Shown here: positions 28,831 through 41,085 of the stretch, piece after piece
Numbering within the stretch: position 1 is the first letter of the stretch
Layout of the letters: the number at the start of each line of letters is the position of its first letter
Origin: Strongyloides papillosus
Lineage: Eukaryota; Nematoda; Chromadorea; Rhabditida; Strongyloididae
NCBI GenBank assembly: GCA_005656395.1
Contig: SRSI01000028.1
Location: 1,364,001-1,428,000, forward strand
Length of the DNA: 64,000 nt
Reading direction: 5' to 3'
Translations under genes and position numbers: made by a program
Notes under the pieces: generated by a model
The model's database searches: none
Seen by the model: the letters and a program-made list of their open reading frames with translations, nothing else
Told to the model about the DNA's origin: nothing

Positions 28831-29445
28831 CACAGAAAAAAATGGGAAAAATTTTGACAAATCTATCTGAAATGCAAAAAAATTTCCCACCCATTAAAAA
28901 AATCAAAATTTATTCAAATTTTAAAATTATCAATGGGCAACAAAAATGTTTTAAACGATAGAAAATATTTGTTGTCGCAGAATTTTGCTGTTTTTTTACA
29001 AAATTATATATGTTTTATATTTTAAATAATGTAACTTTTATTTAATCTTAATGTTTTTGATATAATGTTAATCTTAGAATCTAATTTTTTTTTCTAATAT
29101 ATATGAAACATGTTGTTATAACTCAATTTCGTGTAGAGTTGTTAAGTTTTAACAAAAATCATTGTCCTAAACAATTTATTATCAACAATAAAAATAAAAA
29201 ATCCGTAATAATAACAACAAAAAGCCAAAAATTATTATTTAACCTCACAAAGCATTAATAATTAAAAATATTATTTTAGTATTTGTTCATATATTAACTT
29301 TAAATATTTATAAGATATTTTTTACTATAGATAAAAATCTATATAATTTTATAACTTTTCATAGATTTAATTTTTAAATTGCTACGTCAAACAGCATGTT
29401 TGACGCAAAAAAAAACTATCATATATATATAAGGTCTTTATTGTA

Positions 29446-30967
29446 CACTCAAAATTTTTTTTGTGTTACAAGTATGTAATATACAGACTTTGTTAACTTT
29501 TAGTGGATAATATTACAAATTCTGTATATATCAGATATTTCACCAAAACTACATACTCATTTTGCATAATGAAAGAAGTATGTGTTTATACATTTTAGCA
29601 ATCACAACATTATTTTTTGACCATTTTTTTTTAGCATAGGCAAGGAAATAATAAATACTACATAAATATATATAAATCATATTTTATTAAGTAGACAAAA
29701 CAATACATTTTAATTTAAAAAAAGTTAAAAATAAGTAAAAATTATAGATTTAATTTTAACAAATTACTCGTCAATTTTAAAACATCCGTATTTCATAAAA
29801 ATTCTGTTTGCAAGTGTTTTGTTAAATTTTAATGGCTTCCCCTCCAAACTTTGACTTGTTCCATCAGATTCATGAATCATGTTGTATTTAATTTTTTATA
29901 TTTTGAACAGGAGTTGATATATTCCTGTAATGTAAAAAGAAGACTGTTGTTTTTGTACCTTAACAACAAATAATTTAAAAATTTTTTTTTGAAAACTTCA
30001 TTCCTATGTAATCGAATTTAATATTTGCAATTGCTGGTTCATCATTTTGATCATACTGAACTCCCAAGATTGACATAATATTGACGCGTGATTGAAGTTG
30101 AGAATCGCAGTAGTCCCTTTCTTTTACCAATAGATACGCCAATACATTCTCACACGTTACATTATTTACCAAATTTTTATCATTTACCACAACTGCTTCT
30201 GTAATTTTCCTCTTCCGTGATTTGTTGAAGAACTTGCTTGTCAACTTTCTTAAGCTTGAAATAAAGATGTAGCGATTGTAGTACTTCATTTTCATACATT
30301 ATCTAAATATTAAAAAAAATTTAAAATTAATAATTATTGATAAAAATTTAAATATTTAAAAAAATTGACGACATAATTATGACAAAAAAAATATATTTTA
30401 AGTAGCGCGTAGATATATAAATTATGAAATTTCGTAAAACTTACTTTCCATCATATATAAAAATTGGGATAGTACAAAACAGTCCAAAATATTGGAAGTT
30501 TGTGTACAAAATCTACCAATGTCTTTTTAATAGCTTATATTATGAAAAATTGTAAAAGCAGTTCTCTTAAATAGAAAATTTGTCAAAAATAATTCTACTT
30601 ATAATATAGATGAAATATTAATGTATGATTGTTTTTCTATGGTAGTAGATTTAAATTATGTCTTGATAATCCCTAGAAATGTTAATCACAGAAATGAAGA
30701 TGAGGAAAATAAAAAAAGTTTAAAAAAATATATAAATACTTCTAATCTTTTTACATTTAAAGTGATAATTTATGTGCATATTACTTATTTATAAAGTGTT
30801 ACTAGTCTGTAATTTAACAATTTTTTCTCCAAATTACAGATTATCATCTGTTAACTGACATAATTTCTGTAAAATTACAAAGTATTTGTCCGTAAAATAG
30901 CATTTTATTAGTAAATTCAAAAAAGTCTGTATATTACATACTTGTAACATAAAAAAGTTTTTGGGTG
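29446..30967. mobile_element. TA-flanked TIR element inside the 5' LTR
   Basis: The left end begins CACTCAAAAT and the reverse complement of the right end begins CACCCAAAAAC. Both then continue into a shared TGTTACAAGTATGTAATATACAGAC. TA flanks both sides (29444-29445, 30968-30969). The 3' LTR of the same retrotransposon supplies the empty-site comparison. It carries one ORF (29975-30295, minus strand). TIR length and TA duplication suggest Tc1/mariner-like mobilisation, but the ORF does not resemble a transposase I know. Confidence 0.8.
29975..30295 (-). CDS. Unrecognised ORF in the TIR element, 106 aa
   Basis: Starts MKMKYYNRYIFISSLRKL and ends GMKFSKKNF. The middle is rich in Asn, Asp and Val. 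After a run of nine A in the coding strand the frame stops. A one-base shift there would keep it open to an AAG/GTACAA donor near 29955. A TTTTTACATTACAG acceptor and a second open piece ending KYGCFKIDE (to about 29766) follow. It may once have been a two-exon gene that lost its frame in the homopolymer. No domain recognised. Confidence 0.35.
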   Translation of the reverse strand: MKMKYYNRYIFISSLRKLTSKFFNKSRKRKITEAVVVNDKNLVNNVTCENVLAYLLVKERDYCDSQLQSRVNIMSILGVQYDQNDEPAIANIKFDYIGMKFSKKNF

Positions 30968-31036
30968 TATTTTTTCAGTTCTTATAAAGTTTTAAGTTAC
31001 TCATACTCATCATTTTAAGATGTTGTTAACACCACA

Positions 31037-31054
31037 TGGCGATCCTGGCATCCA
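31037..31054 (+). promoter_or_regulatory. Putative tRNA primer-binding site
   Basis: TGGCGATCCTGGCATCC follows the terminal CA of the 5' LTR with no gap. TGG complements the CCA tail of a tRNA, as expected for a retrotransposon primer-binding site. The primer tRNA was not identified. Confidence 0.7.
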
Positions 31055-31467: not shown

Positions 31468-34400
31468 ATGACTAGTAATCAGATTAAGTTTGACGCGACA
31501 CCCCTAGATAAGTTTAGAGAAAACTCAAGGGAATACTTAGACTATTTAAATAAAATTTTCATCATTAGTGATATTGACGTTAAACAAGATTTTGACTATG
31601 TTAAGCAATTTTTGAGAACACAAAGTAATTCTACTATCAGCTTATTTTTTGATACTTACAAAAACACTGAGTCATGGAGTAAAAAAGCTGTGGAAGAATT
31701 TTGTAATTCCTTATTATCAGAAGTCCCTAATAGATCCGTTAATGAGTTAATGAATTTAGCTAGAGCAAAGAAACAAAAAAATGAGAATATTAAAACTTAT
31801 GCTATGCGTTTAAAATCACTGTTGTCGTTCATGAGTAATGATGAGAAAGAGCAAGTCATACTCTATAAGATAGTATGTGAAGCAGACGATAGTTTACGAA
31901 GCTGTCTATCTGAGGTTAGTAATTTCACTTTTACTGAGATAATTGCTGCGGTTGTCGAATATTTTACGATTAATGAGTTTAAACGATCACTAGTACCATC
32001 AGAGAGTAGAAATGAGAGTTCCTTTAAAAGTAGTACCTATTCCTCTAATTTTAGAAGAGAAGATAAATCTGTTTTGCAGTCAGTATCTTCAGATAAAGTT
32101 AAAGATAAGGTTAACAATACTGATAGCTCTGAATTGATGATTAAAACAGATAGCATTAAGCATTCTCCAGAAGCAGGCAATTCTACGATATCTTGGGGTG
32201 ATAGAAACCTCCAGTCAAAAAAGACATTAGTAGATGAGAATCTTTCGTATAGTCCTTTAGTCTACGAAGTCATCCGTATTTTTGGTAAAGATGTTGTAGT
32301 CATGTTAGATAGTGGAGCTACGTGTAACATTTTAGCATTACAAGAAGTGCAAAAGCATAATTGGCGTTTCCATAGAGAAAACTTTGAGGTAAAAGGAGTA
32401 AATAATACTAGTTCAAATTTTATCGGTTTCTTAGATGTTAACGTTTCGAAGATAGAGTTAACTAAAAATGTCACATGTCGTTTCTACGTATCTTCATGTA
32501 ATGAGAGCTCCATTAGTGGTGGTCTTTGTCAGGAATTAGACATATCCGTTGACGGTAAACTAGAGGAAGCTAGAAATAGAAAGGAATCTTTTATCGCCCA
32601 ACTAAATGAGTTAAATGAGAGTCAACCACATATTGTTAGCTATTTGTTAAGTCATCCAAAGATATTCGATGATAGTATTCTCCAACCTGTTCTTATCACA
32701 TCTATTCCCCTCTCTTCTACACCAGAGAGAAAATTATTTAGAAGTTATAGACCTAAGGACGAGAAGTTAAAATACTTGGCAAAAACATTACGTAAAGAAA
32801 TAGTAGAGGGCAAAATTAGGCAAGAATTTGATCCTTACCTTACATCTCCTACGCATGTTATCAATGAATCTAAACCTCGCTTAGTCATTGATGCGAAACA
32901 AGTAAATAAACATATCCAGGATATATATCTTCCTTTACTCTCCCACCAAGATATGCAAGATCGTATTGCAGGTGCAAAACGGTTTTATAGATTTGATTTC
33001 ACAGCAGCATTTAAGAGCATAGCTTTAGAAGAATCAGATAAGTATATCTTTGGCTTTTCAACAACATTTGGTTCTTATGTTTCCAACGTTCTTAACTTCG
33101 GATATTCGTGTAGCGCACAACTGTTTCAACAAAAGATGGAACAACTTTTCCAAATATACAATATCCAAAACTACCTTTTATACATTGATGACACATTACT
33201 TTTTGGTGATGACCACTCGTTAGAAAGCAATGTATTGAAATTTCTTCAAATGTGTAATGATTATAATTTAAAAATAAATTTATCCAAATCTGAATGGAAT
33301 TGTTCCTCTGTGACATTCATGGGATTTAAGATAGATTGTGAAGGCATTCATGTTCAAGAAGATAGAAAGATTGAGCTAGAACTTTTGAGAGCACCCACTA
33401 ATAAAACAGAAGCCAAGTCAGTCTTGGGAAAATTTTCATACGTAGGTAGACATATAAAAGAGTTTAGTCAGATAACAGCAAGCTTACATCCATCAGCAGC
33501 AGAAGAATATACCCTCAATGAGCGTAGACAAGCTGATTGGAATAAGCTACAAGTAGCTATTAAAGATTTCCTTGTTATGCACCACCCTCCTAGAAATTCC
33601 ACTATTATATTTGAAGCATTACCAACACATGATTCAATTCATGGTCATGCATACTTTTTTGATAATTCCAATAATAAAAATAAATTAAACAATAAAAAAT
33701 TAGTCTCCGTATTTATGCGTAAGATGAATAAAGCAGAATATAATTATTCACCTGCCGAGAAAGAACTTCTTACTTTAGGGTCCTTGATAGAGCATGAACG
33801 TAGATTTATAATATCCAGAAAAGTAGTTCTTCTCACTAGAAGCCCTTTCGTATTTACCATTTTAACCTCACCCTTTGAATCAGTTCTCGACCAGTCTTCT
33901 AGATTACAGAAGTTGGCAGCAACGATTCTTATAGAAAATCTTGAAATAATAAAAGAAACTTCACCACATAAATGTGAGCAGTCTCTTACAAAATTAGTAT
34001 CAAATTCCACAAAAATTGTGTTACCCAAACAGACGCCTAGTACTGTGAGTGAATTTGATGTTGACGAAATTGTTAAGTTCCAAAGTACAGATGCAACATG
34101 CCATCTACTAAAAGAGTTCCTCAATGGTAGTCTCAAGGACATAAATAAAATTGATGCACCGTTTATTAAAGACTTAGATGCACTTTATTTCGATGGTCCT
34201 TTGATTTGCTTTGAGAGACGTCCGGTAGTTAATCTTAGTTTAGTTGAAAAAGCTGTTAAGATTATTCATTTTGCTACACACGCTGGAACGACTGATATTA
34301 GAAGGAAGATTAAATCTTCTGTTTACTGTCATAATATTTCTTCTGTTGTTGACAGAATTGTCGGTAGTTGTCATTCATGTTTAACAATGAGAAAACTTCC

Positions 34401-35997
34401 TAATAAATTGTATGTGTCATGGGTCACTGCTGAACACCCTAGACAAATTGGTTCATTTGATTTATGCTATATTGATAACTCAACAGTAATTGTGCTTGTT
34501 GATCATTTTTCTAATTATATTTATGCTCAGGATTTACCTGATAAATCCTCTCAATCTCTTATTAATTTTTTTAGTCCTATAATGGACGAATATTCTTTTG
34601 TAATCCTTATCTCTGATGGGGAGCCTGCCCTTACGTCTAACGCTTTGTCAGAGTTTTTTTCTTCATATGAGATCTGTTTTCACAACGATTCCCAGCCGTC
34701 CAATTCTCAGAAGATTACTTCCGTTAAGTATCGCCCAGAGTCAAATGGTCGAATCGAAGATCGTATAAGTTCACTTAAGAAGAAACTCAAAAAAGTTGCT
34801 CTGTTGAATATCTTACCCTCTCAAAGATTGCAATGGGCTACTAATGCATTGAATACTTCGTTGTCTAGAACAAAAAATACGAATGGTGAAGTTCAGTTTC
34901 TGTCACCAGCCGAAAAATACTACTTAAATTGTGCAGTTCTACCTGTTAAATTACCTACTTTTGAAGAATGTGTTCCATCTTCTAAAGATATTTACTTTAA
35001 ACCTCGTGGTACTGCGTCAGAAAAATTTGAAAGAGGTAAACTTCTTGGTACGTATGGCCGTCAAGTATCTTTAGTAGAAGATGAAGACGGGATGACACAT
35101 TTAATTTCTTCGAATTATGTTTTTGAAGGTACTCCTTCTCCTTTATATGCACCGTACACGTTAGCCGACTCAGTACTTTTGAACAAAACTGAACCTGTTT
35201 TGCAAATTCCTGAATCTCCTCTAACAACCCCTCCTTCGTCTCCCCCGGACTACCAACATGCGTTGGACGAATCTCTGGAAAGACACGTTCATGAATTGTC
35301 GGATGTCATGAATAATATGAGTTTTGAGATCCCTGTCGATAATACGTCTCTCAATGAAAACCATGTTGAAATTGATTATGAGCAACAAATTGAGCTGAAA
35401 TCTCTCCAGCCGTCTATTAAGTCCGAAATCGATCTTTTAACATTATTAAAACAAAATCCCGATTGCTCTTTCGCTGTTATTGACGGAAGTGCTTCAAACT
35501 CTAAGAACATACAGGAATGCTTGATGGTCGGACATGGTGTTGGTATTGTTGGTTGTTATAACAAATCCCTTTTGCTTATATCTAGAAGATCATTTGCCGT
35601 TGGTCGCTCAACTGCACCACGTATGGAAACGTATGCACTTATGTTTGCTTTAAAGATAGCTCAACATCTTAACGTCAAAAAATTAATAGTTATCACTGAT
35701 TGTGATTATGTATCAAATACCTATATTAATGAATGGTATAAAAATTGGTTTGATGAGAGAGAGAATTTTCCCCACTCCAGCTTATGGAAACAAATATCAG
35801 ACCTTAAATCTCCATCATATTGGGTTTACCACTGTATAAGAGATGCTTTTCCTTTTCACTCTTTTGTTGATAAAGTTGCCAAAGGTCAATTCGAATTGGA
35901 AAGTCTTAACTTAGAAATATTCAACCCGTTGAGAGAAATTGGTATTACACTTCCTTCACATGATAATACGGAAGAGTTTCTGAGACTGTTAAAATAA
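31468..35997 (+). CDS. Ty3/gypsy gag-pol polyprotein with a second, C-terminal RNase H
   Basis: A single uninterrupted 1509-residue frame. Residues 1-180 are a gag/capsid-like helical region with no CCHC zinc knuckle. The protease has DSGA at 281-284. Reverse transcriptase (about 405-640) has the active box YIDD at 572-575. The resident RNase H (about 700-800) keeps E766 in EKEL but reads TRSP (R791) where TDHxxL is usual, so a catalytic Asp is gone. Integrase has H934-H938-C968-C971 and D998, D1050, E1097. After a Pro-rich linker, residues 1325-1500 form a further RNase H fold with D1339 (VIDGS), E1387 (RMETYAL), D1411 (ITDCD) and D1468 (FVDKVAKG). The spacing is close to E. coli RNase HI. 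It probably performs the RNase H step. The enzyme assignments are strong. That the tail domain replaces the resident one is inference. Confidence 0.92.
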   Translation: MTSNQIKFDATPLDKFRENSREYLDYLNKIFIISDIDVKQDFDYVKQFLRTQSNSTISLFFDTYKNTESWSKKAVEEFCNSLLSEVPNRSVNELMNLARAKKQKNENIKTYAMRLKSLLSFMSNDEKEQVILYKIVCEADDSLRSCLSEVSNFTFTEIIAAVVEYFTINEFKRSLVPSESRNESSFKSSTYSSNFRREDKSVLQSVSSDKVKDKVNNTDSSELMIKTDSIKHSPEAGNSTISWGDRNLQSKKTLVDENLSYSPLVYEVIRIFGKDVVVMLDSGATCNILALQEVQKHNWRFHRENFEVKGVNNTSSNFIGFLDVNVSKIELTKNVTCRFYVSSCNESSISGGLCQELDISVDGKLEEARNRKESFIAQLNELNESQPHIVSYLLSHPKIFDDSILQPVLITSIPLSSTPERKLFRSYRPKDEKLKYLAKTLRKEIVEGKIRQEFDPYLTSPTHVINESKPRLVIDAKQVNKHIQDIYLPLLSHQDMQDRIAGAKRFYRFDFTAAFKSIALEESDKYIFGFSTTFGSYVSNVLNFGYSCSAQLFQQKMEQLFQIYNIQNYLLYIDDTLLFGDDHSLESNVLKFLQMCNDYNLKINLSKSEWNCSSVTFMGFKIDCEGIHVQEDRKIELELLRAPTNKTEAKSVLGKFSYVGRHIKEFSQITASLHPSAAEEYTLNERRQADWNKLQVAIKDFLVMHHPPRNSTIIFEALPTHDSIHGHAYFFDNSNNKNKLNNKKLVSVFMRKMNKAEYNYSPAEKELLTLGSLIEHERRFIISRKVVLLTRSPFVFTILTSPFESVLDQSSRLQKLAATILIENLEIIKETSPHKCEQSLTKLVSNSTKIVLPKQTPSTVSEFDVDEIVKFQSTDATCHLLKEFLNGSLKDINKIDAPFIKDLDALYFDGPLICFERRPVVNLSLVEKAVKIIHFATHAGTTDIRRKIKSSVYCHNISSVVDRIVGSCHSCLTMRKLPNKLYVSWVTAEHPRQIGSFDLCYIDNSTVIVLVDHFSNYIYAQDLPDKSSQSLINFFSPIMDEYSFVILISDGEPALTSNALSEFFSSYEICFHNDSQPSNSQKITSVKYRPESNGRIEDRISSLKKKLKKVALLNILPSQRLQWATNALNTSLSRTKNTNGEVQFLSPAEKYYLNCAVLPVKLPTFEECVPSSKDIYFKPRGTASEKFERGKLLGTYGRQVSLVEDEDGMTHLISSNYVFEGTPSPLYAPYTLADSVLLNKTEPVLQIPESPLTTPPSSPPDYQHALDESLERHVHELSDVMNNMSFEIPVDNTSLNENHVEIDYEQQIELKSLQPSIKSEIDLLTLLKQNPDCSFAVIDGSASNSKNIQECLMVGHGVGIVGCYNKSLLLISRRSFAVGRSTAPRMETYALMFALKIAQHLNVKKLIVITDCDYVSNTYINEWYKNWFDERENFPHSSLWKQISDLKSPSYWVYHCIRDAFPFHSFVDKVAKGQFELESLNLEIFNPLREIGITLPSHDNTEEFLRLLK

Positions 35998-36819
35998 GTA
36001 TCTTACCCCCTCTCCCAGATGCTACGTCAAACAGCATGTTTGACGCAAAAAAAGAAATAACTATCATATATACAGGGTGTTCCATAATTAACTCCCCACC
36101 TGCGAGAGCTTATAACTTTTTTTTACGAAGAGATAAAAACATGAAATTTTGCAGGTTAGTAGAACTAAGAAACAATATTTTTTATTTTTTTTATTTTTAA
36201 AAAATTATGGTCCCGTTAGGACTTTTGGCCATTTTTAAAAAATGTGTTTTTTTCGCCTTTATGAGTACGTAACTTTTTAATATGAAGAGATATTGAGATG
36301 ATTCTTTTACAGATCGAAAGCTCAAATTCTTTTGTACTAGAATTTTCAATATCATAAATATTTAACTTCATTAACATTGCTTAATTTTAAATTAAAACAA
36401 AAAAAACACGATTTTTGCCAAAATTTCGTAGTTTTTTTAAAATTAAAGCTCATTGAGAAGATTCTCACAAAAGTTTTATTATTATTCTAATGGAGTTAAC
36501 GAAGCTCTATCGAATGAGTATAGTGCCATTAAAATCAAATGCCATTGACGAAAGTTATGATTTATCAAAGATCACAAATTTCGTACTTCCGGTAAAAAAT
36601 AAAGTTACAAACACTGTTTTTTTTAACATATTTAATACCTAATAGTATTATTTTCATCAATAAAGTATGCTAATTTACGGTATATTGCTCATTTGTCTAT
36701 ATTTGGCCAAAAAAATTCCAATATGTTTTATCATTTAAATTTTTTCAAAAATCATTTTTCTTAACATTTATTACAATTTATCTGCGTTTTATACTATTTT
36801 ACATAACAATTGTCCTATA

Positions 36820-39800
36820 CAGGGCCGTCGCGAGGGTTTTCTGCGCTCTAGGCAAAAACATTTTTTGCGCCCCTTTATTTAAAAAATAAAATTAAAACAT
36901 AATATATACAAAAATTATATATTTATTAATATAAACAAAAAAATATACATTTAATAATGTAAAAAAATTTTACATTTAATAATATAAATATAAATATTAA
37001 AATTTTATTTTTCGTGCCTTCCTTTTTGCAAAATCTACTACTAATTCTCGTAAATCCAATTTTGAAGCTTTATCACATTCAATAGAAATTGTTGCCAAAT
37101 CCACCAACTTATTTTGTGACATTGTTGAACGTAAGTAAGATTTAATAAGCTTCAATTTTGAAAAACTGCGATCACCACTAGCTACCGATACAGGAAGAGT
37201 TAACAATATCCGTAAAGCAATATAAACATTTGGCACACAATCAACCATTTTTTGTTGTATTATAAATGCCAGAACTTCTATTGGTGGAATAGATTTTGGA
37301 AGTCTGCGAGCCACTACATAAAGTTCATTACAGAGATCATTGGCATCAATATCGTTATTGTTATTGTACGTCAAGGCTTCTTCAAATTTTTTGCAGTCAG
37401 AGAGTAAGTCTTCAGTCTTCCTACTACCAGAATTGTATATATCATACAAGAAGCCAAAGAGAGCATTATGTTGTTCTAATTGTTCAAATCTCTCTTCAAT
37501 TGATTGTATAGCCATGTCCAACACAGGATAGTAAAATTCTACCTTAAACTTCTGTTTAGGATCTTGAAGTGCTTCATCTGAAGATTCATAATCAAACAGC
37601 TTTTTCTTTCGCCTTCTACGAACTTCTATGTCAAATTTTGGTTCTATTTCTTGTTCTTTTGCTAATTCAGCAGCATCAACCAAAACTTTTTCATATTCTT
37701 CATCACATCTGCATTGTACAAGGTATTTTTTTGTTACTTTCAATTGTTCTGTTGTTGATGTTATATCATCATCTTTCTCTTGAAGTACCTTACTTGCGAT
37801 ATTTACCTCAAACAGGATATTGTACCACGTGACCAAAGATACCATAAATTTGTACTTACAAATTGCATCAGCAAGTACCTTTGCTTCAATTCTAGCTGAA
37901 TTTCCTGATAAAGTATTTAATTTTGGGTCGTCAAATATCTCCAGTAATGAATCGTATATTTCACCAAGATTATATCGTAAAGGCTTTAATGCGTCGATTC
38001 GGCTTTCCCAGCGAGTTTCACAAAGCCCCTTAAGAGAGAAGTTAATTATGTGATTAGATAAAACTTGCCAACGTTGAGTAGATGCAGGAAAAAAATTGTA
38101 AATTTGTTGAACCAGTCCAAAAAAATTAGTTGCATCAAGGCAGCATTTAGAAGAATCATTGACCACCAAATTCAAAGTATGTGCACTGCAAGGAACAAAA
38201 AACGCACGTGGGTTTATTTCTAGTAGTCTCTTTTGAACGCCATTTTCTTTCCCTTTCATATTACTGCCATTATCATATCCCTGACCACGAATGTTTTCAA
38301 CCGGTAGTTCCATTTCTTTAAGTTTATCAAGTAAAATTTCCGTCATAGATGCACCAGTTGTTTTTTCCATTGGGACAAAACATAAAAAATTTTCTTTTAT
38401 TACTACTTTATTTGATGATAAATCGACAAAACGTGCAATCATTGTCATTTGTTCGACATGACTAACATCTGGTGTGCAATCTAAGATAATTGAATAATAT
38501 TTAGCTAATTTAATAGACGATAAAATTTTATTTTTTATAGCATTTGACAAAATTTGAATAAGCTCATTTTGAATATCTTTTCCTAAATAGTGAACCATTG
38601 TTTCTTGATTTTTGACTCTACGTAAATGCTCGTTCATTACTGGATCAAAAATGGCTAAATACTTAACAAACTTTAAGAGGTTACCATTATTTATACTGTA
38701 TAATCTCTCAGTTGTTCCACGAAGTGCCAAGTTTTGTGTGCCAAGTACTCTGATTAAAGCTATTAAACGTTCCAGTATTTGATGCCAATGTTTTTTCTCT
38801 TGCTTGATATTTTGTTGGTTAATACTATCGATGGTTGAATCATTTGATAAACGCAAATTCAGCTCTCTCCAGGTATTATAATTCTCCAAATGATAACTAT
38901 TTCTTTCATGTGAAGAAAGAATTGCTCCAATGTTTTTCCAATCTCTGGAACCGGAAGTTTGAAGAACTGACGTGTTTTTCTTTTGGAATAATTTACAGCA
39001 AAAACAAAATACCGAATCACATTTAATAGAGTATACTAACCATGAACGACATACTTCCTCACCATTGGGCAATATTCGTTTGTAATATGTTGGAGTAAAT
39101 CTTCTTTTATGTATATCTTTTGGAAAATCATACTTGCTAATTTGATGTGGTCCTTTTTTTGTAAGAATAATTCGAAAGTTATCATCGAAATCAGAAGGCC
39201 AACTTGCAGAGTCATTATAATCGACATTAAGAACGGCGGGATCTTCTTCTCTACTGCGATAAGGTGGCTCATTTTCCAAATTGTCTTTATCACAAACAGT
39301 AACTTCGTTATCAGTTTTTTTTCCCTCCTCACTACCTTCAATGTGAATATCTGATTCCGTAGTAGAAGAATTTGCTACTGCTGCAGAAATCTCAGGATTT
39401 TGAACACATTTTTCTTCGTTTGTATTACGGGAAGACAAATATTTTAAAAAAGAACCCGATAATTAGGCTATTTACTTGTAATTTTCAGCTTTTCTTTTTC
39501 GATACTGTGCTCCAGAAGGGCGTTTTTTATCAGCCATAATTGACTATAGTAAAAATATTTCTATTGGTATTCGCTCTATATAAATAAATATTAACAAAAA
39601 ATAATAGTGATGAACTTACCTAACAATATATAGAGCTATCCAAGAATAATTAGCAGCTTCAATTAGTTATTAGTAGATCTAAAAAACAAATTTTATATAA
39701 ATTATCTAAATTACGAAATAGAGAAATAAATATAATGAGATTCTACTCTATACAACTAAAAAAATAGTTAAGGATGTAAAAGGTAATTTAAACCAGTAAT

Positions 39801-39890
39801 TGGGAATATGTTTATTCGTCATTTTGCACCCCTCTCATGCTTGCGCTCTAGGCAATCGCCTAGTTTGCCTATACCGTAGCGCCGGTCCTG
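36820..39890 (-). mobile_element. hAT transposon (ZMYM1-like), 8-bp target duplication
   Basis: A 3071-bp element with an exact 8-bp duplication GTCCTATA at 36812-36819 and 39891-39898. The TIRs are CAGGGCCGTCGC and CAGGACCGGCGC (10 of 12), followed on both sides by GCGCTCTAGGC and, further in, by the inverse pair TTTTTGCGCCCC and GGGGTGCAAAAT. Eight-bp duplications and CAGGG ends are diagnostic for hAT. It encodes one long transposase ORF on the minus strand. It is the innermost and therefore youngest layer of the nest. Confidence 0.95.
36997..39438 (-). CDS. hAT transposase, ZMYM1-like (TTF zinc finger, DDE, dimerisation domain)
   Basis: Open for 813 codons. A TTF-type zinc finger has Cys at 130, 140, 145, 147 and 148 (RSWLVYSIKCDSVFCFCC). 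The RNase H-like core has ILDCTPD (D320) and GQGYDNGSNMKG (D389). The C-terminal dimerisation region reads LTLPVSVASGDRSFSKLKLI. At the position where relatives have C-E-R-S-F-S this copy has G-D (D756). If that Glu is the third catalytic acid, as in Hermes, the change may weaken or abolish activity. The frame has no ATG near its start. A typical family start, MADKKRPSGAQYRKRKAEN, lies upstream at 39537-39475 in the same frame but is separated by two TAA codons (39472-39474, 39463-39465). Splicing across them is possible (AA/GTAAAT donor), but no good acceptor fits. Confidence 0.85.
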   Translation of the reverse strand: MSSRNTNEEKCVQNPEISAAVANSSTTESDIHIEGSEEGKKTDNEVTVCDKDNLENEPPYRSREEDPAVLNVDYNDSASWPSDFDDNFRIILTKKGPHQISKYDFPKDIHKRRFTPTYYKRILPNGEEVCRSWLVYSIKCDSVFCFCCKLFQKKNTSVLQTSGSRDWKNIGAILSSHERNSYHLENYNTWRELNLRLSNDSTIDSINQQNIKQEKKHWHQILERLIALIRVLGTQNLALRGTTERLYSINNGNLLKFVKYLAIFDPVMNEHLRRVKNQETMVHYLGKDIQNELIQILSNAIKNKILSSIKLAKYYSIILDCTPDVSHVEQMTMIARFVDLSSNKVVIKENFLCFVPMEKTTGASMTEILLDKLKEMELPVENIRGQGYDNGSNMKGKENGVQKRLLEINPRAFFVPCSAHTLNLVVNDSSKCCLDATNFFGLVQQIYNFFPASTQRWQVLSNHIINFSLKGLCETRWESRIDALKPLRYNLGEIYDSLLEIFDDPKLNTLSGNSARIEAKVLADAICKYKFMVSLVTWYNILFEVNIASKVLQEKDDDITSTTEQLKVTKKYLVQCRCDEEYEKVLVDAAELAKEQEIEPKFDIEVRRRRKKKLFDYESSDEALQDPKQKFKVEFYYPVLDMAIQSIEERFEQLEQHNALFGFLYDIYNSGSRKTEDLLSDCKKFEEALTYNNNNDIDANDLCNELYVVARRLPKSIPPIEVLAFIIQQKMVDCVPNVYIALRILLTLPVSVASGDRSFSKLKLIKSYLRSTMSQNKLVDLATISIECDKASKLDLRELVVDFAKRKARKIKF

Positions 39891-41085
39891 GTCCTATAAG
39901 AGCATTTTTACGCATCTTTCAAAAATGTCGTATTTTCGACCTTGTTCTCATTGAGCTTATGTTCGAAATATGAATAATTAGTAGTAAAAAATAAAATAAT
40001 ATTTCAACTACTTTCAATAAAGAATTATTATCGATGTTGAAAAATTGAAAGAAATAGCATAATTTTTTTCAAATACTAAAGAAAATGAAAATTAGACTAT
40101 TTTTGAATTGTCATAACTTTCTTGAGACTTATTACCAAGAAACAAGATTATTACCGTTGAATAGAGCTTCGTTAACTCCATTAGAATAATAATAAAGCTT
40201 TTGTGAGAATCTTCTCAATAAGCTTTAATTTTAAAAAAACTACGAAATTTTGGCAAAAATCGTGGTTTTTTTGTTTTAATTTAAAATTAAGCAATGTTAA
40301 TGAAGTTAAATATTTATGATATTGAAAATTCTAGTACAAAAGAATTTGAGCTTTCGATCTGTAAAAGAATCATCTCAATATCTCTTCATATAAAAAGTTA
40401 CGTACTCATAAAGGCAAAAAAACACATTTTTTAAAAATGGCCGAAAGTCCTAATGGGAACATAATTTTTTAAAAATAAAAAAAATAAAAAATATTGTTTT
40501 TTAGTTCTACTAACCTGCAAAATTTCATGTTTTTATCTCTTCGTAGAAAAAAGTTATAAGCTCTCGCAGGTGGGGAGTTAATTATGGAACACCCTGTATA
40601 TAGGGTCTTTATTTATATTTTTTCAGTTCTTATAAAGTTTTAAGTTACTCATACTCATCATTTTAAGGTGTTGTTTACACCACATAAATAGAAACTTTAA
40701 ACTATCAAAAAAAATTTCCGCCTTCAGAAGAGTGTAACTTCATAAAAAAGTATAATTTATAATAATTCAAACTAATTAAACTTATTAACAAAAATATTGT
40801 GATATGTTAATAAATGCTCTTTATGAAAGCATTTATAATCTTACATAAAATTAAATTCTAATTTTATATTTAAAAAAGCATTGTAGAAGACAATCTAAGT
40901 TTTAAAATAACAATAATATAATAAAAAATAAAAACTTATTTTAATAACTACTTAATTACTGCTCTAATTTTTATGTACCATATAATTGCGATAAAACTAG
41001 TCGCAATTCAAGAAAATTCAAATTTTGTTAGGTGGGAAAAATTTATTACATTTTACACAAAAATGCTTCCCACTTTTTTTCTGTG

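Follow-up and report, generated by a model that had tools for sequence, protein, structure and literature searches.

A 64-kb stretch of the genome of the nematode Strongyloides papillosus (the window, in which all coordinates below are counted) carries a Ty3/gypsy retrotransposon whose polyprotein has two ribonuclease H (RNase H) domains, a resident one behind the reverse transcriptase (RT) and another at the extreme C-terminus, behind the integrase (INT). The locus raises the question of which domain could serve the element, and whether the arrangement belongs to one copy or to a lineage. The best explanation, given a probability of about 0.8, is a lineage of Strongyloides gypsy elements in which the RNase H job moved to the C-terminal domain (the tail) and the resident domain was kept as a structural part.

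Two RNase H domains in one polyprotein

The gag-pol gene (31468..35997, + strand, as are all its parts) is one intact reading frame of 1509 aa. Its protease region (32260..32547) was recognised by the motif DSGAT at residue 281, Asp_protease_2 reaching E=0.12 only, and the RT (32755..33447) by an RVT_1 match and the motif YIDD at residue 572. The resident RNase H (33535..34047) is followed by the integrase (34210..35037), which has the zinc-binding HHCC and catalytic D,D,E residues, Integrase_H2C2 and rve both being below cut-off; these seven columns show no variation across 10 aligned families. A variable linker (35038..35439), Pro-rich at residues 1249-1260, leads to the tail (35440..35892) with the acids D1339, E1387, D1411, and D1468. 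The order protease - RT - RNase H - INT, with the protease seen by motif only, together with long terminal repeats (LTRs) and a short target-site duplication, bears out the assignment to a nematode Ty3/gypsy element made in an earlier sequence-only reading of this DNA.

That reading had also proposed an extra RNase H with these four acids at the extreme C-terminus, and profile search, structure prediction, PDB comparison, and conservation all agree with it. A type I RNase H makes up the final ~185 residues, with Pfam RNase_H (PF00075) above its cut-off. The AlphaFold model computed from a 16-row input has a pLDDT of 85.3, and its top PDB matches are cellular RNase HI proteins; a model from the single sequence was poor (pLDDT 50.7) and was discarded. 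The D-E-D-D set is complete in all 15 tails aligned, which represent 14 divergent families of the same genome, and the mean pairwise identity of the tails is 28.9% over 10 families. When these 10 tails were compared with PF00075, seven scored above the cut-off of 25.8 bits, one reached 24.5 bits, and two had no match. PF00075 outscored PF13456 in all eight tails with any match, the remaining two matching neither, and PF17917 and PF17919 matched none of the 10. NCBIfam RNase H models matched five tails, all below cut-off, and VIA-align marked no RNase H family as missing. Among solved RNase HI proteins, the best bacterial match is 91.5 bits and the human one 83.5 bits. The semi-conserved active-site position is occupied by His in 11 of the 15 tails, by Lys in three, by Asp in the window tail, and never by Arg; a rule quoted in PMC5348765 takes His at this site as the sign of the fungal/metazoan class and Arg as that of the archaeal class. 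By these sequence comparisons, the tail belongs to the bacterial/animal RNase HI type and not to the 'archaeal' type of plant Tat elements. It resembles cellular RNase HI and RNase H1 in fold, D-E-D-D set, and best PDB matches, and is unlike them in sitting in a retrotransposon polyprotein and, in the window copy, in having Asp where RNase HI has His.

The resident RNase H (26-28 bits to RT_RNaseH) has E764, and T790-R791-S792 stands in place of the motif TDH, as had been read from the window before. Over 10 families the aspartate column of TDH reads R, T, H, R, S, T, G, Y, D, and T. This Asp is missing in nine families, and the tenth (L036) is without the first Asp and carries Asp in place of Glu. 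In the first-aspartate region, Asp is found in at most five of 10 families at any nearby column, and the glutamate is present in nine, with Asp in the remaining one. None of the 10 families has all three of the resident acids that were examined, and the loss is therefore old. A profile of the 10 resident domains can nevertheless be aligned with Ty3 RNase H (PDB 4ol8, E 0.0019; 7q5b, E 0.0046) and with the 'Enzymatic polyprotein' chain 8r0s (E 6e-5). PF17917 gives 16.5-35.1 bits on them, four above the cut-off of 24.8, as compared with 77-125 bits at the top 150 places in this genome. Judged by its residues, the resident domain is catalytically incomplete, but still recognisable in 10 of 10 families. 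The idea of the sequence-only reading that the old domain is decaying in this element is therefore not supported.

A probable nuclear RNase H1 exon was seen among the PF00075 matches of the genome (L040:1501-1884, C22:758436), with the motif AHDLA placing His in the column of the tails' last catalytic Asp; it scores 94 bits to human RNase H1. A scan of bacterial and archaeal genomes with this exon gave no relative, as 29 stretches fitted the pattern and none was confirmed.

A lineage within the Strongyloides genome

Loci of the same genome (58.2 Mb, 79 contigs) are designated here by L-numbers. The tail protein matches 32 places in it and PF00075 matches 55, L040 included. The order RT - resident RNase H - INT - tail is that of the window frame and of each of the 17 others longer than 1400 aa among the 32 tail matches. 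The profiles for this domain reading were built without the near twins L009, L022, L027, and L035, and one frame set comprised 14 (window included) of the 21 frames longer than 1000 aa. Two further copies on other contigs have tails 97% identical to the window tail, and the 10 families of alignment A1, which starts at RT, share 25-39% identity with the reference member L018; L047, which scores the same as L046, and L041-L043 of the L036 group were left out of alignment A2. The linker between INT and tail is 49-203 residues long. INT followed by RNase H was found at five more loci, L044, L045, L046, L048, and L049, at L048 across a frame break; L044 and L049 are near twins.

A public S. papillosus protein agrees with the frame of L009 in 1504 of 1509 residues and with the window frame in 1476. 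A search with the window tail gave one protein at E <= 0.01, from S. papillosus, among 154 candidates, the L036 tail gave three among 379 candidates, and the A1 profile gave ten proteins at E <= 1e-30 among 7995 scored. Protein P0004, from a contig of 4754 bases, aligns with 88% of the L036 tail at 72% identity. Judging by this sequence, the lineage may spread to other worms.

Six copies of a 608-aa frame (L011-L016, on contigs C10, C30, C60, C43, C51, and C25) retain the N-terminal region of the window family, the integrase part, and the second half of the tail, with no RT or resident RNase H seen; two LTR copies are visible at L012. They were taken at one time for a separate RNase H family, a view that was dropped, as they resemble relatives with an internal deletion (for L011 and L012, by blastn); probably they are a non-autonomous derivative that arose in this way.

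At the RT sites scored, no strong resident RNase H occurred together with a tail. When the best 150 of 447 RT candidates were compared with the best 150 of 420 PF17917 candidates, a strong resident domain without a tail was found at 87 RT sites and a tail without a strong resident domain at 39; no site had both, and 24 had neither.

In the RNase H tree, 17 tails lie on one side of a branch (support 85/75), with five cellular and three gypsy RNase Hs on the other, the gypsy ones forming a separate starred group with a branch length of 3.15. The approximately unbiased test does not reject a common group of tails and gypsy RNase H (p-AU 0.31). The INT tree has 26 rows, 18 of them tail-bearing, and was computed without P0010 (no INT match) and P0001, P0002, and P0005 (near copies). 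It needs two changes between tail-bearing and other rows because the very long outside row P0014 falls among the tail-bearing ones; one clade of tail-bearing rows is not rejected (p-AU 0.24). P0007, the sole Tat-like sequence there, groups with the non-tail rows. For the 15 rows shared by both trees, without the near twins P0004, L027, and L049, five of 12 splits are common. In 2000 label shuffles the mean was 0.27 splits and the maximum three, so that none reached five; the remaining seven splits differ between the trees mainly at poorly supported forks. One old gain and joint descent of tail and integrase fit these trees, and a single origin is moderately supported by them.

Several observations weigh against the tail having taken over the RNase H job in one lineage. 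The window tail scores low against PF00075, and the residue at its His/Arg site is Asp. Comparison of five near-copy pairs shows the tail evolving at no slower a pace than the other domains: the ratio of non-synonymous to synonymous change (pN/pS) is 0.52 for the tail (5 synonymous and 10 non-synonymous changes), 0.43 for RT, 0.24 for INT, and 0.15 for the resident domain, values that rest on 5-12 synonymous changes per domain and decide nothing. The support for tail monophyly is just that given above, the INT tree needs its two changes, and both trees are without tail-less elements of the same genome. The RT sites include near-copies, so the counts of 39 and 87 are not independent events, and 24 of 150 sites fit neither class. 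Finally, nine further frames longer than 1400 aa with a PF00075 match lie outside the domain-order reading.

Origin and possible working of the tail

According to the preferred explanation, an RNase HI of cellular type would have been joined, in an ancestor, to the C-terminal end of Pol beyond the integrase. The resident domain would afterwards have lost its active site and been retained as a 'tether'-like structural part of the reverse transcriptase. The tail, as the element's sole working RNase H, would degrade the RNA strand of RNA-DNA hybrids in the particle during cDNA synthesis, with the linker cut or uncut; cleavage by the element's own protease is possible. Placed on the integrase side, the tail would act in trans to the polymerase or via an RT-INT assembly. 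The more specific proposal is that one ancient acquisition of an RNase HI of animal type founded this whole nematode gypsy lineage, in which RNase H activity comes solely from a domain linked to the integrase and acting in trans to the polymerase; it is tentative, its chances being a little short of even.

Repeated gain of C-terminal RNase Hs by different gypsy lineages of the Strongyloides genome is rather unlikely, as the INT and tail trees agree far above the shuffles, the tail has the same place in every frame read, and one clade is not rejected. Against this must be set the groups with different loop motifs into which the tails fall, the RT matches of tail-less sites ranking among tail-bearing ones, the limited monophyly support with two changes on the INT tree, and the three or more gains proposed in plant Tat (PMC6317226). 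A tail that chiefly guides the integrase, as chromodomains do, by binding genomic RNA-DNA hybrids (R-loops), with cutting secondary or absent, would suit its position behind INT with a variable linker, and C-terminal INT additions of gypsy elements can be targeting modules (the chromodomain in Chronos and chromoviruses; PMC5348765). This is improbable: all 15 tails retain the acids, whereas variation is seen in most other columns, and with an inactive resident domain the element would be without RNase H.

The tail could also be a duplicate of the element's own resident RNase H, for which only the grouping with gypsy RNase H not rejected by the tree can be quoted. The tails match PF00075 and solved RNase HI proteins and in no case of 10 PF17917 or PF17919, and the gypsy RNase Hs stand apart on their long branch, so that duplication is very improbable. 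Nothing was found in favour of an artefact of assembly or gene prediction, or of a single chimeric copy, and its probability is negligible in view of the two further copies on other contigs, 13 further divergent families, the target-site duplication with LTRs, and the separately predicted public proteins P0001-P0005.

Among known systems, plant Tat elements have a second RNase H at three places, in gymnosperm TatIII after INT (PMC6317226), and several positions of the 'archaeal'-type domain (aRNH) in Tat are also stated by PMC8775202. The sequence-only reading had held that in earlier cases the new domain always lies beside the old one, before the integrase, and had named published elements with the order INT - RNase H as evidence against its claim; TatIII contradicts the former and is a case of the latter. 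The Strongyloides elements are like TatIII in having the second RNase H after INT, and like Tat in the resident RNase H, reported to be catalytically degenerate there (PMC6317226). Unlike here, the hosts of TatIII are plants and its second domain is of 'archaeal' type (aRH). Chronos and Archon of oomycetes are likewise Ty3/gypsy elements with an added RNase H and lost resident acids, but differ in hosts, in the aRNH type of the domain, and, for Chronos, in a chromodomain at the C-terminal end beside INT (PMC5348765). The new RNase H of retroviruses is called eukaryotic fmRNH (PMC5348765). A new RNase H, with the old one turned into a tether, is the likeness to vertebrate retroviruses, lokiretroviruses, and the Odin elements of sea anemones, the last being another case of RNase H gain and decay (PMC9040795).

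In position, the Strongyloides tail is unlike the retroviral tether and RNase H, as it follows INT. In retroviruses, lokiretroviruses, and Odin elements, the new RNase H stands with the tether before the integrase. Among the titles and abstracts listed from one open-access library, none described an RNase H after INT from a nematode or other animal, which is weak evidence of absence. A paper on Strongyloides small RNAs mentions gypsy elements, with no 'RNase H' in its main text (PMC9203780). The arrangement, supposed to be undescribed, is thus without a nematode or animal precedent in the literature searched, but is known from plant TatIII. With a second RNase H having complete acids and a resident domain without its catalytic residues, the elements are a new animal lineage among dual-RNase-H gypsy elements, with a different domain source, the INT - RNase H order itself being already known. 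Protein P0007 looks like plant TatI/TatII and makes a useful contrast: its RVT_3 domain apparently precedes RT, and its resident RNase H, inspected by eye, is missing the first Asp.

If the single-capture proposal is true, this would be a separate animal route to dual RNase H, with the retroviral domain class in the TatIII position, and strand transfer would go without an RT-attached RNase H. Among the steps proposed from gypsy elements toward retroviruses is the gain of another RNase H as the old one decays. A further, apparently independent animal case, with the domain on the integrase side, would make it possible to ask if the enzyme needs to be attached to RT at all, and why a catalytically incomplete resident domain is kept. 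In so diverse a lineage, these questions are open to comparison and experiment.

Structure and insertion of the window element

The element is a true insertion, with LTR pieces and TAAAT at both ends. The two copies of the target-site duplication (29375..29379 and 40685..40689, without strand) were read directly and are equal. The left LTR lies in two pieces on the + strand, one starting TGCTACG (29380..29445; blastn against the LTRs of L009) and one ending CACCACA (30966..31036). A probable primer-binding site, judged from its sequence, starts TGG immediately 3' of the LTR (31037..31054, + strand). The right LTR is likewise in two + strand pieces, 36020..36072 and 40597..40684, the second ending CACCACA. 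L009 is a near copy of the window element, 98.1% identical across 5,116 bases, with LTRs of ~137 bp each. In the window copy no env-like frame was found, as only 22 bases separate the pol stop (35997) from the right LTR (36020), and besides gag-pol there is no further sense frame of at least 120 aa inside the element.

The LTRs were split later than the element arose, the left one by a 1.5-kb terminal-inverted-repeat insertion (29446..30965, arms 29444-29500 and 30913-30969) and the right one by a 4.5-kb hAT-like DNA transposon (36073..40596, arms ~436 bp); the borders of both are uncertain by a few bases. Both of these different DNA transposons sit at one AT-rich spot of the LTR, to within ~20 bases. 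The hAT-like element encodes on the - strand a transposase frame of 813 aa (36997-39438) with DUF4371 and Dimer_Tnp_hAT matches. Its inverted repeats are more than 430 bp long and about 97% alike, and it is probably a young DNA transposon.

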